The notes under the pieces: model-generated
What the model saw: the letters and a program-made list of their open reading frames with translations, nothing else
What the model was told of the DNA's origin: nothing
The model's database searches: none
Position numbers and translations under genes: made by a program
IMG/VR virus record: IMGVR_UViG_3300008110_000094
Coordinates: 1 to 62,620 of that record
Direction: 5' to 3' (one strand)
Length of the DNA stretch: 62,620 nucleotides
From: a virus
Shown: one piece after another, positions 7,032 to 53,688 of the stretch
Numbering within the stretch: the first letter of the stretch is position 1
How the letters are laid out: every line of letters starts with the position of its first letter

Positions 7032-8188
7032 CAACGCAAGACACTGGTGCCCAGATTCCGCCCGACGCAACCCAGACGACGACTGCGGGTAACGACCCCG
7101 CCGCAGCCGCACCGCCTGCCAGCGCCGAGCAAAGCCAGCCCGCCCTTCCAGCAACCATAGAAATCGACGGCCTCGTGGTCCCGACCGACCTTTCTTCGGT
7201 TGAAGATCTCGATCTGCGCGAACTCTATGAACTGAAACTGGACGCGCACAAGCAGGCCCAGGAAAAAGGGAACACGGCCACACCGCCCGCCCAACCCGAA
7301 GCGCCCGCCCCGACGACCGGCAAGGAAACACCGCCGGCCGCTCCGACCGCCCCCCAGCGGCCGAACGGCCAGCCGATGATTCCGAAACCCCGTCTCGACG
7401 AAGCGCTCAAGGCCAAAGCCGACGCCGAAGCAGCGGCGGCTTATTGGAAGGGTGTTGCAGACGGACGCCAACCGGCAGGCAAACCGCCCGCCGATGCCCC
7501 GTCATCGACGCAGACCCAAGCCCCAACGGATCTCGCCGCCATCAACGCCCAGCGGGTTCAACTCGCCAAGGACTTTGACGACGGCAAGCTCACCGCAGCG
7601 GATTGGGAGCAGAAGCGCCAAGCCCTCGACGACCAAGCGCAGGAATTGCGGGAAGCCGCACTACTCGCCAAACTCCCGAAGGCTTCCAGCGAAAACGACC
7701 TTGTGCTCGAGGAACGCACCGCCCAGATCGCGGCGCAGCATCCCTATTCGGAATTGGTGTTCCCGGTCCAACCGGACAACAACCCGATCATGGACGCCCG
7801 CCGCGCAACCCTGGCGGCCGAAGCCAACGCCAATGTCGTTGCGGCCAATCCCGGCATTCAGCCCGGAGCCCGCGCCGATCTTCTGTACCGCGCCGAACTG
7901 GCCCGACTCACCGATGTCTATGGCCCCATCTGGTTTCCGAACCAGCCCAAGCCCGCGCCAGCGACTCAAACCTCTGCTACGCCTCAGCCCGCCATCTCCA
8001 AGACGGCCCAAAACCGTCTCGAAAAGCTGGTGCTGGCAGGCCAGCAGCCGCCCAACCTCGCCGCAGCCGGGAAATCCGGGCAGGGCGAAGGTGGGCTCAG
8101 CGAAGCCGCGATCGCACGCATGAGCGACGACGAAATCGCCGCTCTGCCGCCGCAGCTTCGCGCCAAACTTACCGGGGTCGCACCCTAG
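7028..8188 (+). CDS. Scaffolding / head assembly protein (probable)
   Basis: A 386-residue Ala/Pro/Gln/Glu-rich protein directly before the major capsid gene. It shows the usual scaffold look: disordered N-terminus, long helices in the middle (residues about 150-215, VQLAKDFDDGKLTAADWEQKRQALDDQ), and a basic, helical C-terminus. The start is GTG at 7028, coupled to the previous stop. Function is inferred from position and composition, as scaffolds rarely keep sequence identity. Confidence 0.75.
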   Translation: MTTQDTGAQIPPDATQTTTAGNDPAAAAPPASAEQSQPALPATIEIDGLVVPTDLSSVEDLDLRELYELKLDAHKQAQEKGNTATPPAQPEAPAPTTGKETPPAAPTAPQRPNGQPMIPKPRLDEALKAKADAEAAAAYWKGVADGRQPAGKPPADAPSSTQTQAPTDLAAINAQRVQLAKDFDDGKLTAADWEQKRQALDDQAQELREAALLAKLPKASSENDLVLEERTAQIAAQHPYSELVFPVQPDNNPIMDARRATLAAEANANVVAANPGIQPGARADLLYRAELARLTDVYGPIWFPNQPKPAPATQTSATPQPAISKTAQNRLEKLVLAGQQPPNLAAAGKSGQGEGGLSEAAIARMSDDEIAALPPQLRAKLTGVAP

Positions 8189-8228
8189 CGACCGTCACCA
8201 CCCCCCTGCTTTGCAGGGCGACGGTCGC
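8188..8228 (+). promoter_or_regulatory. Strong stem-loop in the capsid gene leader
   Basis: GCGACCGTC (8188-8196) pairs with GACGGTCGC (8220-8228), and inside it CCCTGC (8204-8209) pairs with GCAGGG (8213-8218) around a TTT loop. The hairpin starts in the scaffold stop codon and ends 17 bases before the capsid ATG. There is no U-tract, so it is more likely an RNA-stability or processing element than a terminator. Confidence 0.6.
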
Positions 8229-8245
8229 CAGCATGGAGAAATCCA

Positions 8246-9361
8246 ATGGCAGCGACCGACTTTGGCGCCCTCACGGACGCCGTGAAACGTACCTGGGCCG
8301 TTGAAATCTGGATGGCCTACCGCGACAACTCGTTTTGGTTCTCGAACGGGTTTATCGGTGCCAGCCAGAAGGACACCAACAAGCCCGTCTATCGCGTCAC
8401 CGAACTCACCGAGACGGAACGCGGCCTCGAGTGCGTCATGCAGCTCGTCCTCGACCTCGAAGGCGACGGCGTGACCGGCGACAACTTGCTCGAAGGCAAC
8501 GAAGAAGCCCTCGTCAACGACTCGCAGATCATCAAGATCGACCAGCTTCGCGCAGGCGTGAAGAACAAGGGCGAGATGGCCGAACAGGCGACCGTCATCC
8601 GGTTCCGCTCGGAAGCCAAGGACAAGCTCGGCTTCTGGCTCCCGGACAAGCTCGACGAACTGATGTTCCTCACGGCATCGGGTCGCGCCTACTCGCTCAA
8701 GACCAACGGGGCCACGCGCACCAACTCGCAGCTCAACACGCTGCGCTTTGCGGGCGACGTGACCGCGCCTTCGACCAACCGCAGCCGCTTCGCCGGCTCG
8801 GCCACGTCGGAAGGCACGCTCACGGCGGCCGACAAGATGTCGTGGTCGCTCTTGGTCAACTGCCGCCAGTACGCGGTGTCCAACGGCGTGAAGCCGATCC
8901 GCGATCGCGGCAAGGATTACTACGCCGTCGTGATGTCGCCCGCCCAGCGTCGCGACCTCGTGCTCGATCCGGTCTATCAGACCATCGTTTCGCGCGCAGC
9001 GGAGAAGGGTTCCTCGAACCCGCTGTTCAACAACGCGATGGCGACGGTCGATGGCCTGATGATCTACGAACACCGCAAGGTGTTCAACACGACGGGCCTT
9101 GCCTCGGCTTCCAAGTGGGGCTCGGGCGGCACGGTCGAAGGCGGGCAGGCGATCATGATGGGTTCGCAGGGCCTCGGCTTTGCGACCATCGGCAACGCCT
9201 TCTGGCGTGAAGCCGACAACACGGACTACGGCAACCGTCCGGGCATCGGCTACGGCCGCAGGTTCGGCCTCTTGAAGCCCCGATTCAAGAGCCCGTCGAA
9301 CGGCGGCACGCGCGAGGACTTCGGCATCGTTTCGGTGCGCACCGCCGCGTCGACAACGTAA
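8246..9361 (+). CDS. Major capsid protein, N4-gp56 family (DUF4043-like)
   Basis: At 371 residues it matches the N4 gp56-type HK97-fold capsid family: the N-terminal WMAYRDNSFW...GFIG segment, the central LMFLTASGR, and the C-terminal NTDYGNRPGIGYGRRFGL motif are characteristic. A GGAG site lies close to the ATG. The gene is flanked on both sides by strong hairpins (8188-8228, 9373-9401), fitting the need for very high expression. The combination with P22-like portal and tail genes makes the head-tail set mosaic. Confidence 0.9.
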   Translation: MAATDFGALTDAVKRTWAVEIWMAYRDNSFWFSNGFIGASQKDTNKPVYRVTELTETERGLECVMQLVLDLEGDGVTGDNLLEGNEEALVNDSQIIKIDQLRAGVKNKGEMAEQATVIRFRSEAKDKLGFWLPDKLDELMFLTASGRAYSLKTNGATRTNSQLNTLRFAGDVTAPSTNRSRFAGSATSEGTLTAADKMSWSLLVNCRQYAVSNGVKPIRDRGKDYYAVVMSPAQRRDLVLDPVYQTIVSRAAEKGSSNPLFNNAMATVDGLMIYEHRKVFNTTGLASASKWGSGGTVEGGQAIMMGSQGLGFATIGNAFWREADNTDYGNRPGIGYGRRFGLLKPRFKSPSNGGTREDFGIVSVRTAASTT

Positions 9362-22162: not shown

Positions 22163-25100
22163 ATGGCTCGTTTCCAAGGTATCCCTCTCGACCAAGCCCC
22201 GATCGAGCAGGCCCCGTCGATGGCCGCCCCGCGCGCACCGCGATTCCGGGGGACGCCCCTTGAAGGGCCCAAGCCTGTCGCCGCTCCCGCGCCCGTGGCA
22301 GCACTTGCCCCGCCGCCGATCGCCGAGGCGCCCGCACCCTCCGAAATGCCCGACATCAACCCGCCCACCATGCCGCAGGCTGCACCCCAGCCCGCAGCGG
22401 GCGGCCTTGGCGCGCAGATTATGCGGTTCGGCAAGGATGCCGGCGCCTCTGTCGTGGCTGGCACGGGATCCATCATGCAGTTCCCCGGTCAGGTCTATGG
22501 GCTGGCAACCGGCGATTTCGATACGATGTCCACCCGGGGCGGCGAGGCCGTTCGGCAATTCGGCCAATCCCTCAAATCGCCCGAGCTGCAAGAGAAGGAA
22601 CGCCAAGCCCAGGCCGTCATTGCCGAGGCCGAGAAAGACGGCTTCGGGGCCGAGGTCGGCGCGGTCCTCAAAACCTACCTCAGCGATCCGGTCCTGCTTG
22701 CCAATTTCACGGTCGAACAATTGCCGTCGCTTCTGGCGACGATGGGCTTCGGCAAACTCGCGCAATGGGGCACCCAGGTTGCGGCCAAGGTCGCGCAGCG
22801 CGGTGCTGTATCGGCGGCCACACTGTCCCGCGCCGGGCAGGCCGGGGCCATCACGGGCGGTGCCGCGATGCAGGGCGCATCCGTGGGCGACGAAACCCGC
22901 GATGCAATTCTGCGGCTTCCCGACGCCACTTTTGCGGCCTCGCCCGCGTTCCAGGCCCTTGTCGCGTCCGGTATCGACCCGCAGGCGGCCAAGGAACAGC
23001 TTGCGCTCGAGGGTGCTCGCCTTGCCGGTGCGGCAGGGGCCGGTATCTCCGGGGCCACGGCGACGTTATTGCCGGGCGTGGAGCGCATGGGGTTCGGCCA
23101 AGCGAGCACGCAAGGCATCATCCGGCGCGTCCTGACGGGCGGTGCGGCCGAAGGCTTCCAAGAAGGTCTGGAAGAAGGCGGCGGCCGGTTTGCCCAGAAC
23201 GTCGCTGTCCAACAGATCGATCCCGACCAATCGCTCTTGCAGGGTGTGGGTGCACAGGGCACCATGGGCGCCTTGCCGGGTGCCGTCACGGGCGCTGGCG
23301 TCGCGGCCCTTTCCGGCCGTGAGGATGCGCCTATTACCCCCTCAATCGCGGTCAATGGCGGCCCGCCGGTGCGGGTTGAGCCCACGTTCGACGCTCCCAC
23401 CCAGCCCCCGCCCCCGCCCAACCCGCGCGCAGGTGCCCGCTTCGGGACCGGCGATACCGTCCTGCAGCCCGCCCCCCTCTCGACGCCGCGCTCGCGCAGC
23501 GACCTTGCCGCCGACTTGGCCGACCCGCGCCCGATCGCGGAAATCGACGCCGAGCGCCAGCAGCGGGCCCGTGAGCAGCAAGTTCAACTCGCCAGCCAGT
23601 ACGGCTATCCCGCGATCGGGAGTGCCTTCACGTTCACCTTGCCCGATGGCGAAACCGTCCAGGGCGTCATGGAAGGCGTGCAGCAGACCAGCACCGAAGG
23701 GCTGGCGCGCATCCGGGGCGCCGATGGTCAGATGTACGTCCTCGGGGCCGACGAGTTTACAGTCACCGAAGGAACCGGCGACAAAGCGGACCCCGTGGTT
23801 GTCAAAACCGCCGAGGACGTTGACATCGCGGCCCAGCAGGTTGAGGCCCCGACCCCTGCCCAGGCCAAGGCCGGAAACTACAAGCACGCCCATCTTGAAT
23901 GGGAAGGCTTCGACATCGCCATCGAAACCCCGCAGGGCGGAACGCGCAGCGGCGTGGGCAAGGACGGCAAGCCGTGGTCCGTCACCATGCCCCACCATTA
24001 CGGACGCCTCAAAGGCACGATCGGCGCAGACGGGGATCAGCTCGACATCACGATCGGCCCCAACCCCGAGCAAAACGGCGTTGTGTGGGTGATCGACCAG
24101 ATCGACCCCGATACCGGCAAGTTCGACGAACACAAAATCATGGCCGGGTTCGAGATGGGCGAGGAAGCCGAGCAGGCCTACATCGACGGCTTCTCGGACG
24201 GGCGCGGCATCGACCGGATCGGCGCCGTGGAGCGCATGGATCTTGCCCAATTGCGCCAGTGGATCGCCAACGGCAACACCAAGAAGGCGCTCGCCTACAA
24301 CGGCACGCCCAAGTATCGCGAGTACCGCATCCCGGCGCCAGCGCAGGCCCCCGGCGACAATTACCGTGGCGGCCAGCGCGGGCCCGCCTTCGACCTTCCG
24401 GCCTCGCAGCCGGCGCCTGCGGCTGAGCCTCCGCAAGCGCCCGCCGAGGGTGCGCCGTCCCGTGAAAACGGGGCGGCTGCGTCCCCCGAGCCTGCCCCGG
24501 CGCCCGTCGTGCGCCCCGTGCAGCCGAAACCGCAAACCCTCGCAGAGCCGGAACAGGCCCCCGATTGGTACAAGGAACTGACGGAGACGGGCCGCCGCTT
24601 GCTTTATGTGCGCGCTGGGTTCACGGCAGGCGAGGTCAATCGCCGCGCCAAAGTGACGTGGAACAATATCAGCCCCGAGGTTCGCAAACGGCTGGAAACG
24701 GCAGCCAAAGCGCCGCAGCCGGAAGCCGCACCCCGACCGGCCTACATAGGGAAGGGGCCGGATTTCGCCAGCGGGCGCAATGATGCCCTCGCTGGCAAGC
24801 CGCGCGTCATGCCCACCTACTTCACTAAGCCCTACGGGAAAAACGCAAGGAACTGGTTGCTTGGATGGGATGCCGGTAAGGCCGAGGCCGATCAAACTAA
24901 GGCGTCGGAGGCGCCCCCCGCCGCCCCTCAGAAGGCGCCGCGCCCGAACGACATCTTCTTCAACAACAAGCAAGAACTGGTCGAATACCTGACCGACCGC
25001 TTGCCGAAGGGGTACGAGGTTGACCGTGGCGGTGATGGCCCTGGAAGCCCCGTTCGGCTGTTCGGTCCCGGCGACAAGCTGATCGACGAGTGGGTTGGCA

Positions 25101-28100
25101 GACCCGAACGCGCGCGGATCGACAAGGTGATCGAGCGTGCCAAGAAGGCCGCCGCCGACGCGGCCAAGCCCGCCCCCTCGCCAAAACCCGCCGAACCCGA
25201 TATGCTCCCGGCACAAGCGGAGAATGAAGATGTCGTTCAGCCGAGCGCAGTACCTTCAAGCCCTGCAGGATCAGAACCCGGAGCAAGCGCGGGAACTGCG
25301 CCGCAGCGGGCAGATGTCGAAGCACCTCGCGGACAAGGCGAAGGAGTACGAGGCGACGGAGCGCGCGGCGATGGCGAACGCCGACCCGAGCGACGAGAAC
25401 CTCGCACGGATGATCCGCGAGCAGGTGCAAGCGGAGACGTTCGACCTGCCGATGCAGCGGTAGCCGACAAGCGCCCTGACGCGGAGGTCAAGGGCGAGAA
25501 CCACGTCATTGAAGCCGGTGCGCTGGGCGAAAGCCGCCCGTGGCGCCAGAAGGCACTCGACAATATCCGCGCCATCGAATTGATGCGCCAGATCGAGGCA
25601 GAAGGCCGCCCGGCGACCAAAGCCGAGCAGGCCGAGCTTGCGCTCTATGTCGGCTGGGGCGGTATTCGCAACGCCTTCCCCGATGCCCAAGGGGCTTACG
25701 GCAAGGGCTTCGAGACGATCGGCAAGAAGCTGCGCGAGCTGCTTTCGGACACCGAATACAAGACGGCTCAGCGCTCGATCCAGTACGCGCACTACACCAG
25801 CGAAACGATCGTCCGCGAAATGTGGCGCGCGGCCCAGCAGCTTGGGTTCAAGGGCGGCAAGGTGTTCGAGCCCGGCATGGGGGTGGGCAATTTCGCGGGC
25901 ATGATGCCGACCGACGTTTCGGCGGCCAGCACCTATCACGGGCTCGAGCTTGACCACACGACGGCCCGCATCGCGCGCTTGCTCTATCCGCGCTTCGGCA
26001 TCCGGCAGGACGATTTCACGAAGGCCCCGATCCCCGCCGACACCTACGATCTGGCGATCGGCAACCCGCCCTTTGCCGACGTGGCGATCAAGTCCGATCC
26101 CGCCTACGCCAAGCATGCGTTCCTCCTGCATGACTATTTCTTCGCCAAGTCTCTCGACGCGGTGCGCCCCGGTGGGCTCCTGATGTTCGTCACGTCGGCG
26201 GGCACCCTCAACAAGATCGACACCGCCGCGCGCGAATACATGGCCGACCGGGCGGATTTCGTCGGCGCCATTCGCCTTCCTGGCGATGCCTTCGAGAAGA
26301 ACGCCGGAACCAGCGTCACGACCGACATCATCATTCTGCGCAAGCGGCTCCCCGGCGAGACAGCCGGCAGCAAGGCTTGGACCGAAACCGTCGAACGCAC
26401 CCTGCCCAACAAGGACGGGGCCAAGCAGTCCGGTGCGGTCAATCGCTGGATCTCCGAAAACCCGGAAATGGTGCTCGGCGACGAAGGCTTTTTCGACAAG
26501 CTCTATCCGGGCCGGTACGGCGTGCGATCGAGCGAAGGCGACTTTGCGCCCAAGCTCAAGAAGGCCGTCGATGCGCTCCCCGCCGACGTGATGACGCCGT
26601 GGCAGGAAACCCAGGCCGAACGCGCCGAGGTCGATTTCGGGACCAAAGAGCGCAAGGACGGCTCGTTCTATCTCGACGCCAGCGGTCGCTTGATGCAGAT
26701 GCGCGACCGCGTAGGCCAACCCGTTCCGCAGCGCGGGAAGGGTGCCACGGGCGGCAAGACGGGCGCGGAAATGGCCCGCATCAAGAAGCTGGTCCCGATC
26801 CGCGATGCGCTTCGCGCCGTTCTGGACGCGGACCTGTCCGAAGATTCCGCCAATGCGGCCAAGGCCCGCAAGCGGCTCAATGCCGCCTACGACGAGTTTG
26901 TTGCGGAGTTCGGCCCCATCAACAAGGCCGAACTGTCCGAGCGCCGCCCCAGCGTCGTGCAGCAGGAAAGTGCGCGCTCGGACGCGCGCGAAGAAGCCCG
27001 GTTCAACGGTCTGCCGTTCGACGAAGGGACGTTCGATCCGCGCCAGATGATAGTGCAAGGCAAGTCGCTGGCCGAAATTGCGCGTGCCCGGAACGCGATG
27101 CGCGAGGAATACGCCAAGGCCGGAAAGACGTTCGACGAGGGCACGTTCGATCCCGACGACATGCCCGACATCATCATCGACAAGCGCCCCAACGTCGATG
27201 CGTTCATGGACGACCCAGAGTCCTATCGCTTGCGCGCGATCGAGGACTACAACGACAACACCGGAGAGGCCAAGAAGCGGCCGATCTTCGAGCGCAACAT
27301 CATCACGCGCGAAAAAGAGCCCGAAATCAAATCGGTCAACGACGCCTTGCTCTACGTCCTCAATCGGCGTGGGCGCGTGGCGATCGACGAAATCGCGGCA
27401 GCGGTCAACATCACCGTCCCGCAGGCCATCGAACAGCTTGGCGACCGCATCTTCAAACTGCCCGGCACCCAGGACGCCTACGAAACGCGCGACGCCTATC
27501 TGTCGGGCAACGTCCGCAAGAAGCTGCTTGAGGCCCAGGCGGCGGCCGAGCGCAATCCCGAGTTCAAGCCGAACGTCGAAGCGCTCGAGGCTGTCCAGCC
27601 GACACCGCTTACCCCGTCTGAAATCTCGGCCAATCTCGGCATGCCGTGGTTGCCGACTGACGTGATCGAATCCTTCGGCACGGAAATCGGTCTGACCAAA
27701 CTGAAAGTCGGCTATCTGCCCGCCTTGGCGTCGTGGAACGTCTCGGGCGACGATAGCTCGTCGGCCGCGCGCACCGAATGGGGCACCGCCGAACGCTCGG
27801 CGCCGGAACTGATTTCCGACGCGCTCAATCGGCAAGATCCGAAAATCTACGACGAGGTTCGCCAGCCTGACGGCACGAAAACCCGCGTTCTGAACACCGT
27901 CGCGACCCAGGCCGCCCAAGACAAACTGCAAGCCATCAAGGCCAAGTTCTCGGAATGGGTCTGGTCGGATGCCGCCCGTGCGGATCGTCTGGCGACCCTC
28001 TACAATGACAACTACAACAACCTCGTTGTGCGCCAGTACGACGGCGACTATCTCACCACCCCCGGCATTGCGGCCGGCTGGTCCTGGCGCCCGCACCAGA

Positions 28101-31100
28101 AGCGCGCGATTGCCCGCATCATCCAATCCGGCAACACCTACCTCGCGCACGCGGTCGGGGCGGGCAAAACGTCCGAAATGATCGGCGCCATCATGGAACA
28201 GCGCCGGTTGGGGCTCGTGCGCAAGGCCATGGTCGCGGTCCCGAACCACATGCTCGGCCAGTTCACCAAGGAGTTCTACGAGCAGTATCCCACGGCAAAA
28301 ATCGCGGTTGCCGACGAGCGACAATTCCACACCGACCGCCGCAAGCAGTTCGTGGCAAACGTGGCGAATGACGATCTGGACGCGATCGTCATCACGCACT
28401 CGGCCATGGGGCTTATCCCCGTATCCCCGGAGTTCCAAGACGCGCTGATCCAAGAGCAGATCGACAATTTCCGCGACCTTCTCTCGGAGTTGGACAAAAC
28501 CGACCGCATCACGCGCCGCCGCATCGAGAACGCTATCGAACGGCTCGAGCAGCGCTTGTTGGGCAAGGCCAAGAAGCAGGATCAGGTTTACACGTTCGAG
28601 CAAATGGGCGTCGATCAGCTATTCGTGGACGAGGCCCACCTGTTCCGCAAACTCGACTTTGCCACGAAGATGTCGGGCGTGAAGGGAATCAGCCCCGAGG
28701 GGAGCAAGGCGGCCTTCGATCTGTATGTGAAGGCCCGCTACCTCGAAACCATCAATCCCGGTCGAAGCCTCGTCTTGGCATCGGGTACGCCGGTCACGAA
28801 CACGATGGCCGAGCTTTACACCGTCAGCCGGTACATGCAGCCGCAGGAACTTGCGGAGCGCGGCTTGGCGCATTTCGACGCCTGGGCGGCGGCGTTCGGA
28901 GACATGGCGACGGAGTTGGAGCAGGACGCAGCCGGGGGCTACAAGCCGGTCACGCGCTTTGCGCAGTTCGTCAACATCCCCGAACTGTCGGCCATGGTGC
29001 GGCAGCAGATGGACGTGGTTACGTCCAACCAGCTCGAGCAATACGTCGTGCGCCCGAAGATCAAGGGCGGCCGGCGCGAGCTGCATATGTCCGAAAAGTC
29101 GCCGGAATTGGCCGACTATCAGGAACAGCTTGCCGGTCGCATGAAGGCGATCGCCAACCGGAAAGGGCCGCCGAAGCCGGGCGACGACATCATTCTGTCC
29201 GTCATCAACGACGGGCGCCATGCCGCCATCGACATGCGCTTGGTCAATCCCGACCTTCCGGCCGATCCCACGTCGAAGCTCAGCCGCATGATCGACCGGG
29301 TGTTCGACATCTGGCAGAAAACCAAGCGCCAGCCGTTTCACAAGGCCGAAGGCGGCAAGTACACCGAGAAGCCCGTCGATTACGGCCCGGCCACGCAGAT
29401 GATTTTTTCCAATCTCGGCATCGGCGGATCGCGGCCCTTCAACGTGCACACCTACATCGTCAACGAACTGGCCCGGCGCGGCGTGCCGCGCGCCGAGATT
29501 GCGCAGATCGCGGATTTCAAAACCCACGTCGCCAAGCAACGCCTGTTCAACGACATGAACGAAGGCAAGGTGCGCGTGCTGATCGGCTCGACGGCCAAGA
29601 TGGCAACCGGCGTCAACGCCCAGCGCCGCCTCTACGCGCTGCACAACCTCGACCCCCTCTGGTATCCGGCCGACGACGAGCAGCGCAACGGTCGCGCCTT
29701 GCGTCAGGGCAACATGAACCCGGAAATCGAAATCAACGACTACTCGACCAAGGGCACCTACGACTCAACCATGTGGGGCATGATGGCCCGCAAAGCCGGG
29801 TTCATTCAGGGCTTCTTCGAGGGCGACAAGTCGATCCGGTCGATCGAGGATTTGGGCGAGGCGAGCTTGTACGAGCAGGCGAAGGCGCTCACCACGAACG
29901 ATCCCCGCCTGATCCAGTTGACGGAAACCAAGCAGGAATTGGAGAAGGCGCGGCGCCGCCGTTCCGCGTTCGAGTCCGAGGTCTGGTCGGTCAAAGAGAA
30001 GATCGCGGGCGCCAACCGCTCGATTGCCTACGCCAAGCGCCGTATCCCCGATGTCGAAAAGGACATCGCCCAGCGGATCGAAACCAAGGGCGATGCGTTC
30101 AAGGGAGCCGTCAACAGCAAGAAATTCGACGAGCGCCCCGAGTTCGGCAACGCCTTGCTCGCCCAGATGAACGACATCGCGGAACTGGAAAGTCCGACCA
30201 AGGCCAAGAAAATTGCCGAGGTCGGCGGCTTCCCGGTCATGGCGTCATCGCAAAAGGCTTGGTATGCGAAGCCCGGCGACCCGTTGAAGGTGTCGGTCTA
30301 CCTCGACCGCAACGGCGATTTCCAGACCGACATTGCAGAGTCGGAATCTGCCCTTGGTCTGGTTCGCAGCATCGAATATGCGCTCGGAAAGTTCGAGTCC
30401 GAGCGGGACGGCTATCAGAACAACATCGCGGCGGCCGAGCGCACGATTAAGGACTACACGCCGAAGCTCGAAAAGAAATTCGACGGCGACGAAAAGATCA
30501 AGGAACTGGCGGAAAAGCTCGCCCGTCTCGAAGCCGACATCAATGCGGACGCCAAAGCGCGCGATGCGGCGGCGGCGGCACAGCAAGCGGCGACCAAGGC
30601 CGAGGATGAATCCGGCGAAGAAATGCAGTCGCTGCGCAACACGGGCCGGGCGCGCAACGGCGAGAAGGTCAAACTCGGGGCGCCCATCGTCGATCGCAGC
30701 CTTGATACCCTGCGGGCCGAACTCTACGCGGATCTTCGCGAAGAACTGGACCGGATCGGGCTCACCGACGTTGCCCTGAACCTTCCCGACTATATCGCGC
30801 GCGGGGACGGGGAAGGCGGGGTCCAGTATTCGGCCGGCCGCCAGCGGTTCTGGGGCGACGCGCAAGTGCTGATCGAGATTGCCTTGACCGAAGCGAACGG
30901 CGCCGAGGTTCAAGTCGATCCAAACTCGACTCTGCACCACGAAGCCGTCCATGCCATGAAGCGGCTCAACCTGTTCAGCCCGGCCGAGTGGAAGGTGCTG
31001 GCTGCGCGGTCGGAAGCCGTGTGGGTCAAGGAATACGGCCTGACCGACAAGGACTCCGGCTACAATAACCTGCCCAAAAACCTGATCCTCGAGGAAGGCA

Positions 31101-34100
31101 TCGCCCGAGCCTACGAGGCTTGGAAAGAGGGCCAAGAGGGGGCGATGAAGGGCGGCCTGATCGCGCGGGCCTTTGCCAAGATCAAGCGCTTCATCGAGGC
31201 GATCGGCAACGTGTTCCGGGGCCGGGGCTTCAACACGGTCGAAGGGCTGTTCGAGAAGATCGACGAGGGCAAGATCGGCCGCCGTGGGCGCGAGGCGCGG
31301 CACGCAGATCCCGATGGGCCGCGCAAGAATTTCAAGCCCATGTATGCCGATGTGCCGGGCGAACCGGCGCCGAAGACAATGGCCGAAAATCTCGCACGCG
31401 GACGGGCGGCGATTGCGAAGGTGCTGGCCGAGCAGACCGATGTGCGCCACGCCGCTTGGCGTCCCGAACTCGGCTGGATCGATTTCATCTGGGGCGACGA
31501 CGCCAAAGGCATCGCGCACGCCATCAAGGGGCGGATCGAAAAAGACGGCATGTCCCGTGCCGACGCCGAAACATTGGTGCGCCGCATCCCCGATGTCATC
31601 GCGCGCGGTCGTCTAAACCCATACTTCGTCACGCCAGAGCAGCGCGTTGGACGCACGATTGTCTGGAACAACCAGACGGTTGTGCTGCGATTTGAAATCG
31701 ATGGCGTTGATCGCCGCTGGGTCATCACTTCGCACGAAGGCATGAGCAAAATGCCGAGCGGCGCCAAACAGATTTCGGAACAGCGGGCGGAGGAATTGAT
31801 CGCCGATGCGACGGTGAGGGGTTCGGGCGCCTCGTCCGTTGCTACGCAGGGTGAGCTTCGCGCGAACCTACGTGACCAAGCCAAAGCGGCTGCCAGTGGC
31901 GACACTGGACCCGGTATTTCGACCGGGCTAGGTACGGCTAGCGGTTCCCGCCGAAGCGGCATCTCGCCCACCCAGGGAGCGGCGACGGGCAAAGATATAC
32001 CCGAAACCGACTCCGATGGCAACCCGGACGGCAGCAACGACGACGCCATGTACTCCCTTCTGCCGAAGGACCAAGCCTCGCCGGCAGAGTCCGAGCGCAT
32101 GGCGGAACTGGCCGGGGAAGAAATCGTCTCGGGCACCGAGCGCGATTTCGTCAACGACGCTGGGCTCGTCAAGCGCTGGGTTGTGCATCCCCGCACCATC
32201 GCGGCCTACGACAAGGATTTCGTGCCGGTCTATCGCGCCGCCGTTCGCCAGTTCGAGACGCGCGACGAGTTTGCGGCCGAAATCGCCCGCAAGGCCCAAG
32301 CCTATACGGACCTGACGCCCGAGGACCGCGCCCAGGTCGATAAGCTGCTTGAGCTTGGTCGCCTGGAAGGGACGGTCTATGGCGACGCCGCGCTGAAAGA
32401 CGGCGTGACCAACGATCCCAGCGCCAACGAGGGCCGCACCGAAAACGCCGTCCTCACCAAGCCCGGCGAAACCGTCACGCTCACCGACCGGCAGATCGAG
32501 GGCTACAAGGCTGCACGGGCTTCGATGAACACGGCCTTGGACCTGTTCAAAGCCCAGATCATCGAAGAATGGGGCTACGATCCGACCGAGATCCGCTCGA
32601 GCGCCGACATCCTCGCCCTCATCACCGACGAAACCGGCGACCGGGAAGCCGAGCAGCACAAGGATGCTGCGAAGATCGTGCGCGAAATCGAGCAGGCGCA
32701 GCGCACCGGCTACGTCCCGTTCACGCGCTGGGGCCAGATCGGCATTGCGGTTCGCAGGGCCGATAGCCGCCAGATGGCGCTCGGCATCGACGGCGAAGCC
32801 TCGCGCCCCTACACCACGATCCACTACGAAATGATCGAGGTCGATGGGGCCGTCTCGCGCCTCATGCGCGCCGCCCGGAAGCTGAAAGGCCGCAAGACGG
32901 CCGAACAGCTCGGGCAGTTCCCCGAGGTCAAGGCCCGGTTGGACGCGCTCAAGGCCAAGTACGAGGGCGACCCCGACGTGCGGTTCAGCGTGTTCCAAGT
33001 CGGGGAGGGTGGGCCGCTCGAGCAGGGCGTGAAGCTGTCCGATCTGGACATGCTGGCCGAGGTCGGGCGGATCGACGACAAGGCCTGGGAGCAGGTGCGC
33101 GAGCAGCTTGAAAAAGCGATCAAGATGCGCGGCTTCCGCAAGCATTTCTTTGGCTCGAAGAACCTGCCGGGCTACTCGGTCGATTTCGAGCGCGCGATCG
33201 CCGACTACACGATCGGCATTGCCGGGTATCTGGCCCGTCGAAAGTACGGCTCGATCTGGGATGGTGCAGTGGGCAAGATTCCGACCACCAAGCCCAAGCT
33301 TCGCGAATACGCCCAGAAATACCGGGACTACACGCAATCGCCCCAAGAAGAATTGCAGATGCTGCGGCAGTTGGGGTTCGTGTTCTACCTTACCTCACCC
33401 GCTTCTGCCTTGGTCAACACGACCCAGGTTCCGCTTGTGACGGTGCCCTGGCTATCGCAGTTCGCGCCTGGGCCCAAGGTGATGTACCACGTCACGAAGG
33501 CCTACAAGGACGCCTTCGCGATGACGACGGCAAGCCGTGGCATGGACGTGTTCGACCCCGCCAAAGCGCCGGAGGACGTTCGCGAAGCCTTCCAGAAAGC
33601 GTGGGACGAGGGCTTCTTTGTCCCGTTGAACACCTGGGAAATGATGGGCACCGCGCAGGCCCGCAGCCAAGTGGTTCGGCGTCTGTCGAAAGTCAGCCGC
33701 ACGGCGGTCGATGCCATCGCGCTTGGGTTCACCGTAGCCGAGCGCTTGAACCGGATTGTGACGTGGATGGCGGCCTATCGTTTGGGCAAGCAGGAAACCG
33801 TGCGGCAGTCGGCCCGCACCATCCTTGCGAAGAACGCACTCGCCCGGTCGGACGAGCTGTTGCGCGGCTACACCCCGGAAAAGTTCGCAGGCTTCGCGAT
33901 CGACGAAACCCAATTGCGCATGGGCAAGGTCAACCGTCCCGCGATGATGCGCGGCGCCGGGGCGGCGATCTTCCAGTTCAAGGGTTTCACCATGCAGATG
34001 ATCGAATTGCAGTTCCGCATGGTTCAACAATATGCAGGCCGCCGCCCGAAAGTCGCAGTCGGCGCCATGTGGTTGCTGTTGATGCTGACGGCTGGCATCT

Positions 34101-34933
34101 GGGGCGCCCCGTTCGGAGACGATCTGAAAAACATCTTGGAGTGGATGAAACGCAAGTTTGGCGGGACCGATCTCGACCTTGATACCGAACTGCGCGAGTT
34201 GGTCGTCGAATTGACCGGCTCGCCGGGGCTTGCAGAAGCGTTCTCGCGCGGTACGTCGCGCGCGGCCGGCGTCGATCTGCAGCGCATTGGCATGGGCAAC
34301 GTCCTACCGGATGATGCGCAAGAACTTGGCGGTATTCCGCTTGATCTAGCCTGGGGGCGTCTCTCGCAGGCAATCGAACACGGCAAGCGTGGCAACTGGA
34401 TGCTGGCTTTGAGCGAAATGATGCCCGCGTTCCTCAAGAATCCGATCGTCGCCATGTCGTGGGGCACGGAAGGCGTCAGATCCCAGACATCGGGGCGCGT
34501 TGTTATTCCGCCCGAGAAAGTCACGGCGGGCGATATCGCACAGAAGGCGATTGGCTTCACCCCGGCCGCCATCGCCAACCAACGGGAGTCCGAACGCGCC
34601 CAGACACGGGCGAACACCGCGACCAAAGAGGTCAAGGACCGCTACATCGGGGAACTGGCACGCCTTCGTGCGGACATCCTGCGTGCCGACACCGCCAACG
34701 ACGCGGCCAAGTCTCGGGTGCTCGAGGAACGGTTCGCGCGCACCCTCGACGAGATCCGCGCCTTCAACGAGGGCCGCCCGCTGCACGAAATGGTCATCGT
34801 CAATCCGAAAACCCTCAAGGATCGGATCAAGGAAGAACTGTCCGGGGCGGCGGTGCGCGACAAGAACGCCCCCAAACAGGCCCGCCCGCGCCGCGAGGAA
34901 ATCGAGCGAATCTACGGCGAGCAGCCCCGATAG
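22163..34933 (+). CDS. Giant polyvalent protein (4256 aa), DarB-like
   Basis: A single open frame encodes a chain of counter-defence domains. Residues about 570-725: phage InPase-like domain (GNYKHAHLEWEGFDIAIE ... DEHKIMAGF). About 870-910: segment resembling ribosome modulation factor. About 1150-1440: N6-adenine methyltransferase with motif I FEPGMGVGNF (about 1235) and NPPF (1301-1304). About 1970-2560: SNF2-type helicase, Walker A AVGAGKT (1997-2003), DEAH (2156-2159), motif VI QRNGRALRQG (2507-2516). About 2926-2980: metallopeptidase-like HEAVH plus downstream EE. About 3080-3195: PBECR-type (barnase/EndoU/colicin-like) domain. About 3735-4010: LPD38-like helical domain. Such proteins are packaged with phage DNA and act early. 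All motif residues needed for activity are present. See also the nested gene at 25230. Confidence 0.9.
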   Translation: MARFQGIPLDQAPIEQAPSMAAPRAPRFRGTPLEGPKPVAAPAPVAALAPPPIAEAPAPSEMPDINPPTMPQAAPQPAAGGLGAQIMRFGKDAGASVVAGTGSIMQFPGQVYGLATGDFDTMSTRGGEAVRQFGQSLKSPELQEKERQAQAVIAEAEKDGFGAEVGAVLKTYLSDPVLLANFTVEQLPSLLATMGFGKLAQWGTQVAAKVAQRGAVSAATLSRAGQAGAITGGAAMQGASVGDETRDAILRLPDATFAASPAFQALVASGIDPQAAKEQLALEGARLAGAAGAGISGATATLLPGVERMGFGQASTQGIIRRVLTGGAAEGFQEGLEEGGGRFAQNVAVQQIDPDQSLLQGVGAQGTMGALPGAVTGAGVAALSGREDAPITPSIAVNGGPPVRVEPTFDAPTQPPPPPNPRAGARFGTGDTVLQPAPLSTPRSRSDLAADLADPRPIAEIDAERQQRAREQQVQLASQYGYPAIGSAFTFTLPDGETVQGVMEGVQQTSTEGLARIRGADGQMYVLGADEFTVTEGTGDKADPVVVKTAEDVDIAAQQVEAPTPAQAKAGNYKHAHLEWEGFDIAIETPQGGTRSGVGKDGKPWSVTMPHHYGRLKGTIGADGDQLDITIGPNPEQNGVVWVIDQIDPDTGKFDEHKIMAGFEMGEEAEQAYIDGFSDGRGIDRIGAVERMDLAQLRQWIANGNTKKALAYNGTPKYREYRIPAPAQAPGDNYRGGQRGPAFDLPASQPAPAAEPPQAPAEGAPSRENGAAASPEPAPAPVVRPVQPKPQTLAEPEQAPDWYKELTETGRRLLYVRAGFTAGEVNRRAKVTWNNISPEVRKRLETAAKAPQPEAAPRPAYIGKGPDFASGRNDALAGKPRVMPTYFTKPYGKNARNWLLGWDAGKAEADQTKASEAPPAAPQKAPRPNDIFFNNKQELVEYLTDRLPKGYEVDRGGDGPGSPVRLFGPGDKLIDEWVGRPERARIDKVIERAKKAAADAAKPAPSPKPAEPDMLPAQAENEDVVQPSAVPSSPAGSEPGASAGTAPQRADVEAPRGQGEGVRGDGARGDGERRPERREPRTDDPRAGASGDVRPADAAVADKRPDAEVKGENHVIEAGALGESRPWRQKALDNIRAIELMRQIEAEGRPATKAEQAELALYVGWGGIRNAFPDAQGAYGKGFETIGKKLRELLSDTEYKTAQRSIQYAHYTSETIVREMWRAAQQLGFKGGKVFEPGMGVGNFAGMMPTDVSAASTYHGLELDHTTARIARLLYPRFGIRQDDFTKAPIPADTYDLAIGNPPFADVAIKSDPAYAKHAFLLHDYFFAKSLDAVRPGGLLMFVTSAGTLNKIDTAAREYMADRADFVGAIRLPGDAFEKNAGTSVTTDIIILRKRLPGETAGSKAWTETVERTLPNKDGAKQSGAVNRWISENPEMVLGDEGFFDKLYPGRYGVRSSEGDFAPKLKKAVDALPADVMTPWQETQAERAEVDFGTKERKDGSFYLDASGRLMQMRDRVGQPVPQRGKGATGGKTGAEMARIKKLVPIRDALRAVLDADLSEDSANAAKARKRLNAAYDEFVAEFGPINKAELSERRPSVVQQESARSDAREEARFNGLPFDEGTFDPRQMIVQGKSLAEIARARNAMREEYAKAGKTFDEGTFDPDDMPDIIIDKRPNVDAFMDDPESYRLRAIEDYNDNTGEAKKRPIFERNIITREKEPEIKSVNDALLYVLNRRGRVAIDEIAAAVNITVPQAIEQLGDRIFKLPGTQDAYETRDAYLSGNVRKKLLEAQAAAERNPEFKPNVEALEAVQPTPLTPSEISANLGMPWLPTDVIESFGTEIGLTKLKVGYLPALASWNVSGDDSSSAARTEWGTAERSAPELISDALNRQDPKIYDEVRQPDGTKTRVLNTVATQAAQDKLQAIKAKFSEWVWSDAARADRLATLYNDNYNNLVVRQYDGDYLTTPGIAAGWSWRPHQKRAIARIIQSGNTYLAHAVGAGKTSEMIGAIMEQRRLGLVRKAMVAVPNHMLGQFTKEFYEQYPTAKIAVADERQFHTDRRKQFVANVANDDLDAIVITHSAMGLIPVSPEFQDALIQEQIDNFRDLLSELDKTDRITRRRIENAIERLEQRLLGKAKKQDQVYTFEQMGVDQLFVDEAHLFRKLDFATKMSGVKGISPEGSKAAFDLYVKARYLETINPGRSLVLASGTPVTNTMAELYTVSRYMQPQELAERGLAHFDAWAAAFGDMATELEQDAAGGYKPVTRFAQFVNIPELSAMVRQQMDVVTSNQLEQYVVRPKIKGGRRELHMSEKSPELADYQEQLAGRMKAIANRKGPPKPGDDIILSVINDGRHAAIDMRLVNPDLPADPTSKLSRMIDRVFDIWQKTKRQPFHKAEGGKYTEKPVDYGPATQMIFSNLGIGGSRPFNVHTYIVNELARRGVPRAEIAQIADFKTHVAKQRLFNDMNEGKVRVLIGSTAKMATGVNAQRRLYALHNLDPLWYPADDEQRNGRALRQGNMNPEIEINDYSTKGTYDSTMWGMMARKAGFIQGFFEGDKSIRSIEDLGEASLYEQAKALTTNDPRLIQLTETKQELEKARRRRSAFESEVWSVKEKIAGANRSIAYAKRRIPDVEKDIAQRIETKGDAFKGAVNSKKFDERPEFGNALLAQMNDIAELESPTKAKKIAEVGGFPVMASSQKAWYAKPGDPLKVSVYLDRNGDFQTDIAESESALGLVRSIEYALGKFESERDGYQNNIAAAERTIKDYTPKLEKKFDGDEKIKELAEKLARLEADINADAKARDAAAAAQQAATKAEDESGEEMQSLRNTGRARNGEKVKLGAPIVDRSLDTLRAELYADLREELDRIGLTDVALNLPDYIARGDGEGGVQYSAGRQRFWGDAQVLIEIALTEANGAEVQVDPNSTLHHEAVHAMKRLNLFSPAEWKVLAARSEAVWVKEYGLTDKDSGYNNLPKNLILEEGIARAYEAWKEGQEGAMKGGLIARAFAKIKRFIEAIGNVFRGRGFNTVEGLFEKIDEGKIGRRGREARHADPDGPRKNFKPMYADVPGEPAPKTMAENLARGRAAIAKVLAEQTDVRHAAWRPELGWIDFIWGDDAKGIAHAIKGRIEKDGMSRADAETLVRRIPDVIARGRLNPYFVTPEQRVGRTIVWNNQTVVLRFEIDGVDRRWVITSHEGMSKMPSGAKQISEQRAEELIADATVRGSGASSVATQGELRANLRDQAKAAASGDTGPGISTGLGTASGSRRSGISPTQGAATGKDIPETDSDGNPDGSNDDAMYSLLPKDQASPAESERMAELAGEEIVSGTERDFVNDAGLVKRWVVHPRTIAAYDKDFVPVYRAAVRQFETRDEFAAEIARKAQAYTDLTPEDRAQVDKLLELGRLEGTVYGDAALKDGVTNDPSANEGRTENAVLTKPGETVTLTDRQIEGYKAARASMNTALDLFKAQIIEEWGYDPTEIRSSADILALITDETGDREAEQHKDAAKIVREIEQAQRTGYVPFTRWGQIGIAVRRADSRQMALGIDGEASRPYTTIHYEMIEVDGAVSRLMRAARKLKGRKTAEQLGQFPEVKARLDALKAKYEGDPDVRFSVFQVGEGGPLEQGVKLSDLDMLAEVGRIDDKAWEQVREQLEKAIKMRGFRKHFFGSKNLPGYSVDFERAIADYTIGIAGYLARRKYGSIWDGAVGKIPTTKPKLREYAQKYRDYTQSPQEELQMLRQLGFVFYLTSPASALVNTTQVPLVTVPWLSQFAPGPKVMYHVTKAYKDAFAMTTASRGMDVFDPAKAPEDVREAFQKAWDEGFFVPLNTWEMMGTAQARSQVVRRLSKVSRTAVDAIALGFTVAERLNRIVTWMAAYRLGKQETVRQSARTILAKNALARSDELLRGYTPEKFAGFAIDETQLRMGKVNRPAMMRGAGAAIFQFKGFTMQMIELQFRMVQQYAGRRPKVAVGAMWLLLMLTAGIWGAPFGDDLKNILEWMKRKFGGTDLDLDTELRELVVELTGSPGLAEAFSRGTSRAAGVDLQRIGMGNVLPDDAQELGGIPLDLAWGRLSQAIEHGKRGNWMLALSEMMPAFLKNPIVAMSWGTEGVRSQTSGRVVIPPEKVTAGDIAQKAIGFTPAAIANQRESERAQTRANTATKEVKDRYIGELARLRADILRADTANDAAKSRVLEERFARTLDEIRAFNEGRPLHEMVIVNPKTLKDRIKEELSGAAVRDKNAPKQARPRREEIERIYGEQPR
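25230..25463 (+). CDS. Small gene overprinted inside the polyvalent gene (77 aa)
   Basis: The ATG at 25230 has GGAG 7 bases upstream; a second ATG at 25224 is too close to it. The product is a well-behaved helical protein (MSFSRAQYLQALQDQNPE ... QAETFDLPMQR). By hand count about 69 of 77 codons end in G or C in this frame, against about 31 of 78 in the giant frame over the same bases, where the product is a low-complexity Gly/Ala/Arg/Glu linker. The third-position bias of this genome therefore supports the small frame as the constrained one. Function unknown. Either a true nested gene or a relic captured when two genes fused. Confidence 0.65.
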   Translation: MSFSRAQYLQALQDQNPEQARELRRSGQMSKHLADKAKEYEATERAAMANADPSDENLARMIREQVQAETFDLPMQR

Positions 34934-52073: not shown

Positions 52074-52399
52074 GATTGGTCATCCTTGAAAGTCCGTATG
52101 CTGGCGACATAGAGCGCAACGTCGAATATGCGCGGGCGTGCGTCCGCGACTCCCTAAGCCGTGGCGAGGCCCCCATTGCATCGCACTTGCTTTACACGCA
52201 GCCGGGGATTTTGCGCGACGAAATAGACGAAGAACGCCAATGGGGAATTGACGCGGGGCTCGCGTGGCGCCGCGTTGCCGAGGCGTCCGTCGTTTACGAA
52301 GACTACGGAATATCTCGGGGCATGGAATACGGAATCGCTGCTGCCCTCGCTGCGGGGGTGCCGATTGAGTATCGCAATCTGCCAGGGTTTGCGCGATGA
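52070..52399 (+). CDS. Nucleoside 2-deoxyribosyltransferase-like protein (109 aa)
   Basis: Residues 5-100 fit the DUF4406-type phage NDT-like family: ESPYAGDIERNVEYARACVRDSL, GEAPIASHLLYTQPG, DAGLAWRRVAEASVVYEDYGISRGMEYGI. These fold like nucleotide-processing enzymes, and the GISRGME loop resembles the ligand-binding region. Sits directly before the DNA methyltransferase gene (ATGA). Confidence 0.78.
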   Translation: MRLVILESPYAGDIERNVEYARACVRDSLSRGEAPIASHLLYTQPGILRDEIDEERQWGIDAGLAWRRVAEASVVYEDYGISRGMEYGIAAALAAGVPIEYRNLPGFAR

Positions 52400-53688
52400 G
52401 CGTTCGCATCCTCCTTGGCGACGTGCGCGCCCGGCTGCGCGACTTGGAAGCGGACAGCGTGAATTGCGTTGTAACGAGCCCCCCTTACTGGGGATTGCGT
52501 TCATACGGCGTTGACGGCCAGCTCGGGCTCGAACCAACGGCGCAAGAGCACGTCGATACGATGGTCGATGTGTTCCGCGAGGTCCGCCGCGTCCTTCGCC
52601 CGGACGGCGTGTGCTGGGTGAACTACGGCGACAGCTACGCGACCGGCGTGAACGGTCGGAGCGCTGCAGATACCAAGGCGGCCGGGAACGACGATCGGAC
52701 GTTCCGCGACAAGCCGTTTTCGACGGCGGTGGGCGGGCTCAAGTCCAAAGATTTGTGCATGGTCCCGTTCCGGTTCGCCATTGCGATGCAGGCCGATGGC
52801 TGGTGGCTGCGGTCGGTCCTTCCTTGGGTGAAGCGCAACGGGATGCCCGAGAGCATTTCGGATCGGCCGGCAACGGCGGTCGAGTATGTGTTCATGTTCA
52901 CGAAATCCGCGCGCTACTGGTACGACGCGGAAGCCGTGCGCAAAGCTGCATCGGTCAACACGCATGCGCGCATTGCTCAGCCTGCTGGTTGGAACACCGC
53001 GCCTGGGTCGCATGGAAACATCCACCCGGACGGGCGACGCAAGAAGCCCGTCGTCCGCACCCCGAAATCCGTCGAGCCGGGGCAGGGCATCAAGGCCAAC
53101 CACAGTTTCGAAGCCGCGAGCAGTTCCGAGGTTTTGCTGGACCGGAACTTCCGCAACACGGACCTGTTCTTCGACAGTCTGGACGACGAGCAACCGCCTG
53201 CACCCGTTGCCAGTGCCCCGGCAAAGCCCGACAAGCAGCGCGGCCACGGTCGCCGCCACCAAGGCTTCAACGAGCGCTGGGACCAGATGGAGCGGGCCGA
53301 GCAGCAGGCAAACGGCCGCAATTTCAGAAACACCGATCTGATGCTTGAGAGCATCGACGGCGCCCACGGCCTGATATCGGACGCCGAGGGCAATCCCCTG
53401 GCCCTCGATGTTGCCCCCCATCCGTTTTCGGGCGCCCACTTCGCGACCTTCCCGCCCAAGCTGATCGAGCCGCTTATCAAGGCCGGTTGCCCGGAAGGGG
53501 GAACGGTGCTCGATCCATTCGGGGGAGCCGGGACTACAGGGCTGGTTGCCGACCGCCTCAAGCGCAATGCCGTGCTGATCGAACTCAACGAAGAATACGC
53601 AAAAATTGCGGAAAATCGCTTGCACAGCGACGGCGGGATGTTTCTGGATTTCGCAATCGAGAGTAACAAGACCACAAAATATGGATAA
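52396..53688 (+). CDS. DNA methyltransferase, N4/N6 beta-class
   Basis: 430 residues. Catalytic motif TSPPYWG (27-33) comes first and the SAM-binding DPFGGAGTTG (about 373-382) last, as in beta-class enzymes. Between them, residues about 150-340 include an inserted, partly disordered recognition region. The sequence has full motifs. It probably protects phage DNA from host restriction or regulates replication, as no partner endonuclease is present. Confidence 0.9.
   Translation: MSVRILLGDVRARLRDLEADSVNCVVTSPPYWGLRSYGVDGQLGLEPTAQEHVDTMVDVFREVRRVLRPDGVCWVNYGDSYATGVNGRSAADTKAAGNDDRTFRDKPFSTAVGGLKSKDLCMVPFRFAIAMQADGWWLRSVLPWVKRNGMPESISDRPATAVEYVFMFTKSARYWYDAEAVRKAASVNTHARIAQPAGWNTAPGSHGNIHPDGRRKKPVVRTPKSVEPGQGIKANHSFEAASSSEVLLDRNFRNTDLFFDSLDDEQPPAPVASAPAKPDKQRGHGRRHQGFNERWDQMERAEQQANGRNFRNTDLMLESIDGAHGLISDAEGNPLALDVAPHPFSGAHFATFPPKLIEPLIKAGCPEGGTVLDPFGGAGTTGLVADRLKRNAVLIELNEEYAKIAENRLHSDGGMFLDFAIESNKTTKYG

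Follow-up and report, generated by a model that had tools for sequence, protein, structure and literature searches.

Evidence for a TnpV-like gene overprinted in the linker of a giant DarB-like antirestriction gene of phages

The window analysed here, a phage record of 62,620 bases that includes a terminase gene, contains a small open reading frame (ORF) lying entirely within a giant DarB-like gene and shifted by +1 with respect to it (Table 1). We conclude, with a probability of about 0.92, that this nested ORF is a true gene, overprinted and belonging to the TnpV family; the figure refers to the identity of the gene and not to its function. Selection was found on both frames of the overlap: the small frame is constrained according to its substitution rate pattern and the giant frame according to its avoidance of stop codons.

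Table 1. Positions in the window of the nested ORF, its ribosome-binding site and the parts of the giant gene.
Feature	Position	Strand	Evidence
Nested TnpV-like gene, 77 aa	25230..25463	+	ATG 25230, stop 25461-25463; +1 relative to giant frame; helical AlphaFold model, pLDDT 88
GGAG Shine-Dalgarno site, 7 nt from nested ATG	25219..25222	+	Sequence; anti-SD duplex -6.6 kcal/mol vs. control median of -2.2
Giant DarB-like/polyvalent gene, 4,256 aa, 12.8 kb	22163..34933	+	ORF and translation; phrog_10089; Pfam InPase, PBECR1, ResIII
InPase domain, residues 566-701 of the giant protein, upstream of nested gene	23858..24265	+	PF18823, 2.8e-45
DNA methyltransferase part, about residues 1128-1440, just downstream of nested gene	25544..26482	+	phrog_1685, phrog_37568, PF07669; conserved in 78 viral contigs
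SNF2/ResIII-type helicase part, residues 1974-2135	28082..28567	+	PF04851, 1.5e-5; PF00176

Residues 1049-2824 of the giant protein match the DarB-like antirestriction family phrog_10089 with E=0, and the match includes both the methyltransferase and the helicase. The protein also contains a PBECR1 domain, with a barnase/EndoU/colicin-like nuclease fold (window 31457-31741; E 2e-6), and a second DNA methyltransferase gene is found outside the giant gene (window 52396-53688; phrog_67, 2.7e-64). The original prediction had described a 77-codon frame with its own GGAG site in another frame of the 12.8-kb gene, and its coordinates (25230-25463) were confirmed. The product of the giant frame across the overlap is indeed a low-complexity linker (residues 1023-1101), as it had stated. 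Its hand count of wobble GC, about 90% in the small frame vs. about 40% in the giant one, agrees with the computed values: GC content at codon positions 1, 2 and 3 is 0.69, 0.40 and 0.90 in the nested ORF, and 0.90, 0.70 and 0.40 when the same bases are read in the giant frame, which over its whole length has a position-3 GC of 0.80. An alternative in-frame ATG is present at 25224, but the start at 25230 is preferred because it is favoured by both the family alignment and the Shine-Dalgarno spacing.

When the 77-aa product was searched alone, no match was obtained in Pfam, PHROGs, the phage collection or the viral contigs. Relatives were found using the adjacent methyltransferase as an anchor, which yielded 78 viral contigs. 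An ORF in the +1 frame is present at a corresponding place in 77 of these, ending about 370-630 nt before the methyltransferase anchor, and the giant frame is open across each. A profile built from 35 members matched the nested site in 74 of the 78 loci, among them 40 of the 44 held-out loci (E<=0.001), the loci with no match to it being L055, L056, L059 and L075; at the same threshold it matched no other ORF among the 9,441 scanned in six frames of the 78 loci. The nested products form one family with several subfamilies, which begin with MEFKxPYLxAMRxQAP..., MTETQLLELLTKAL..., MQTxxLVKxALKEKAP... and MNLNNW.... The conservation tests described below drew on these other phages of the family, and not on close relatives of the window itself; when 289 genomes from the class to which Sphingopyxis belongs were scanned, the only clear match was the one already known, and a second match was marginal.

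The nested gene is present in Burkholderia phages BcepIL02, DC1 and JC1, Erwinia phages PEp14 and Pavtok, Klebsiella phage LASTA, Vibrio phage VvAW1, Agrobacterium phage Atu_ph08 and Sinorhizobium phage PBC5, and in none of these nine named phages is it annotated separately. In PBC5 (L085:840-1416), the annotated orf33 begins with the N-terminal part and continues without a break in the nested frame, and the methyltransferase frame is open from position 840; the two halves thus seem to be split in this phage by a frameshift, either real or due to a sequencing error. We also looked for relatives in which the giant protein is conserved over this stretch while the small frame is missing. The outcome was the opposite: it is small-frame coding that is conserved across related phages at the corresponding place, in agreement with the reading of 25230-25463 as a nested gene.

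The geometry of the overlap is such that position 3 of the small frame coincides with position 1 of the giant frame, and position 3 of the giant frame with position 2 of the small one. If the giant protein were the constrained product, its third codon position should vary most; the reverse was observed. At 70-80% nucleotide identity, the differences at positions 1, 2 and 3 of the small frame were 0.22, 0.21 and 0.32, as compared to 0.21, 0.16 and 0.40 for the giant frame in the methyltransferase, taken as control. In the overlap, the wobble position of the small frame changes fastest and that of the giant frame slowest; small-frame position 3 exceeded position 2 in 23 of 28 independent pairs and was below it in 2 (p=2e-5). 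Changes that are silent in the small frame and replacing in the giant one occurred at 0.097 per opportunity, and the converse changes at 0.052 (chi-square p=2e-16). When about 11 kb of the giant genes was scanned in sliding windows, the inverted pattern appeared over the nested gene in all three clades analysed, and the other windows with such a pattern were mostly gap-rich or very divergent. Over 71 distinct loci, GC content at positions 1, 2 and 3 of the small frame was 0.638, 0.414 and 0.813, almost equal to that of the giant frame in the methyltransferase (0.625, 0.432 and 0.810), and position-3 GC was higher in the small than in the giant frame at every one of the 71. Both the substitution and the GC patterns therefore bear out the earlier claim that the small frame is the constrained one, the giant frame being looser here.

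An open +1 frame is common in GC-rich genes, and the small frame could be a by-product of high GC content and of the conservation of the giant protein. In fact, in codon resamplings that keep the giant protein the small frame stays open in about 72% of cases (94% for the locus of the window), and for this reason its openness was rejected as evidence of coding. What lies above chance is the conservation of the small protein at the corresponding position, the codon-position pattern in all 71 loci and the strong Shine-Dalgarno sites. The by-product explanation is refuted by the rate pattern, which is the reverse of that expected, and we give it practically no credence; over the same bases, moreover, the giant-protein identity is lower than the small-protein identity, and Bacillota relatives have a classical TnpV nested as well.

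The giant frame is also maintained. With the small protein kept, it would be expected to remain open in about 14% of redraws (median), and it was open in every one of the 71 distinct loci; codon junctions giving rise to a stop in it (T before AA, AG or GA) were found in 0 of 2,082 cases, as compared to the 6.5% of other codons that end in T. The giant protein is therefore read through the region, which serves as a loose linker, and the view in the original prediction that the giant frame is no more than read-through is contradicted. The same two observations make it very improbable that the small frame is the only real gene and that the giant ORF joins the upstream and methyltransferase genes by accident, without being translated through. 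Such an accident would agree with the faster evolution of the giant frame over the overlap, with its non-coding-like codon pattern and with the annotation of the two halves as separate genes in PBC5. However, DarB-like proteins of the same type are annotated as one CDS, and the giant protein of JC1 is reported among the virion proteins (PMC9144972).

The median anti-SD energy is -7.7 kcal/mol at the starts of the nested genes vs. -2.2 kcal/mol at the other ATGs in the +1 frame, a comparison that is inflated, since the starts at several loci were chosen partly by Shine-Dalgarno strength; in the MEFK subfamily, where the start is fixed by the alignment, the sites are equally strong. All of the nested cases examined have an offset of +1, which is what would be seen if a +1 ribosomal frameshift led from the giant frame into the small one, so that TnpV was made as a fusion to an N-terminal domain. 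We consider this even less probable than an accidental giant ORF, given that strong Shine-Dalgarno sites precede the family start and that conservation of the protein begins at the start codon. Internal initiation is favoured over frameshifting because in several members the small frame is closed by a stop about 3 codons before the start. As judged from these sequence signals, some ribosomes would start internally on the giant DarB-like mRNA, at the nested gene's own Shine-Dalgarno site, and produce a separate small, mostly acidic protein with four predicted helices, and other ribosomes would read the same bases in the 0 frame, giving the disordered linker between the InPase and methyltransferase parts.

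The assignment to TnpV comes from the aligned family. Pfam TnpV (PF14198) is matched individually by 21 of the 35 members at E<=0.1 (best 2.5e-7), mostly below the 27-bit cut-off. The window's own 77-aa protein has no match by itself to PF14198 or to anything else in Pfam and PHROGs, and its membership rests on the aligned family. Profile-profile comparison with classical TnpV gave an hhalign probability of 96.9% over 86 columns (E 1.4e-10 for one comparison). Two nested +1 ORFs from plasmids of Bacillota, one of Enterococcus faecalis and the other the Listeria plasmid pLIS10, are located in SNF2/methyltransferase genes; their scores, 32.6 and 27.4 bits, are above the PF14198 cut-off. Classical TnpV genes nested +1 in long ORFs were also found in three gut phage contigs, in further virus contigs and in a Cohnella plasmid. 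Only scattered single weak matches were obtained with NCBIfam.

According to the AlphaFold models, the window protein has helices at residues 5-15, 17-26, 29-48 and 56-71 (pLDDT 88) and a classical TnpV at 29-41, 43-51, 55-80 and 92-115 (pLDDT 90), so that the four main helices appear in the same order in the two proteins, as compared by order of elements only. The model of this classical TnpV has in addition an N-terminal hairpin and a short helix. Besides helix order, the phage form shares with the family (named from Tn4451) an alignable helical core, a length of about 80-120 aa, a conserved SG-L motif and a C-terminal AEE/ARE motif. The N-terminal beta-hairpin motif of classical TnpV (GDYLIPDL) is absent from the window protein and from the aligned phage members, and for this reason we use the name TnpV-like, for a homologous variant. 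Unlike the classical form, moreover, the phage form lies out of frame inside another gene. The family is helical and mostly acidic, with a median pI of 5.1. Searches of PDB and of viral folds with the models matched nothing, and no function is therefore assigned from the fold.

In the literature searched, TnpV is described as free-standing, and free-standing TnpV genes were found in streptococcal elements with tet(O), all of a single closely related group, and also beside a recombinase-like ORF. In one virus record (G006; L138, L152) TnpV is present three times: nested in a long ORF, free-standing, and beside a recombinase-like ORF. In the Cohnella herbarum plasmid (NZ_CP051681; L133:7103-13363), TnpV is annotated at 7989-8327 and the 2,086-codon ORF containing it has no gene assigned, which may be a gap in an incomplete PLSDB table. 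In Streptococcus phage phi-SsuZKB4_rum (L098:6919-7294), the 3' end of an SNF2 gene is overlapped by a broken copy of TnpV, which adjoins tet(O). Mobile elements carrying TnpV are reported to insert into snf2 genes in Streptococcus suis (PMC9815147); this overlap is probably the junction of such an element, and it was dropped as evidence for an operon.

With regard to origin, a TnpV gene was probably there first, and the linker was overprinted on it as the flanking genes fused, considering that the small frame is the more constrained of the two and that free-standing relatives exist. The idea in the original prediction of a fusion that swallowed a separate gene may thus explain how the arrangement arose, and it is still a good hypothesis because TnpV also exists free-standing.

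With regard to function, nesting of TnpV in the +1 frame of methyltransferase-helicase genes may be an ancient pairing shared across phyla, by plasmids of Bacillota, gut phages and phages of Pseudomonadota, with the small protein dedicated to acting as partner of the giant antirestriction protein, and with the free-standing TnpV of transposons as a form of it that is separated from this partner; we put this forward tentatively, at somewhat less than even odds. It is possible, to a similar degree, that the small protein acts together with the giant methyltransferase-helicase, as an accessory subunit, a chaperone or a regulator of the antirestriction protein. This partner role is suggested by the persistence of the nesting in one gene type across phyla; an acidic, helical family would suit a chaperone or a regulatory subunit, and proves neither. 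For TnpV of Tn4451, a role in excision has been postulated on the grounds of its homology with lambda Xis (PMC3158075), and free-standing TnpV is found near recombinases, which raises the alternative that TnpV-like proteins are recombination or excision factors, the nested copy being a hitch-hiking relic or a regulator unrelated to the giant protein. We regard this as rather unlikely, since purifying selection would not be maintained on a relic within this one gene, and the AlphaFold models are helical bundles with no fold match in PDB, which lends no support to an Xis fold.

The giant gene resembles those of DarB-like and polyvalent proteins, such as P1 DarB and Bcep22 gp75 (PMC5512222), in combining a methyltransferase with an SNF2-type helicase and further domains. 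Unlike the giant gene of the window, P1 darB has no nested TnpV, and the same holds for three shorter plasmid methyltransferase-helicase genes, from Agrobacterium, Pseudomonas and Campylobacter; the nested gene is therefore not obligatory for every such protein. In P1 ddrB (L155:26577-26975), an annotated small gene, iddB, lies inside on the opposite strand, a further overlap in a gene of the Dar region. The literature searched on polyvalent proteins, JC1 and CSP3 describes no overlapping gene, the original description of Bcep22 and most subscription papers being outside this coverage. Rz1, embedded in Rz among the phage lysis genes, is likewise a small gene that a larger gene of the same strand contains completely, as stated for JC1 (PMC9144972), although the genes and their function are different and the protein family is unrelated. 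Similarly, ardD, which has antirestriction activity, is hidden inside the mobile-element gene tniA of Tn5053 (PMC3533173), although on the antisense strand and with an unrelated product.

In the isolated phages checked, a same-strand overlap that is conserved across phyla had gone unannotated. To our knowledge, long overlaps of this kind are rare. The finding places the uncharacterised TnpV family in a genomic context, namely the linker region of a giant antirestriction protein, and thereby offers a function that can be tested. It also means that knock-outs, deletions and domain analyses of such DarB-like genes affect two proteins at once. Finally, the nested genes form a natural series with a fixed frame relation, which offers material on how two frames share one stretch of DNA.
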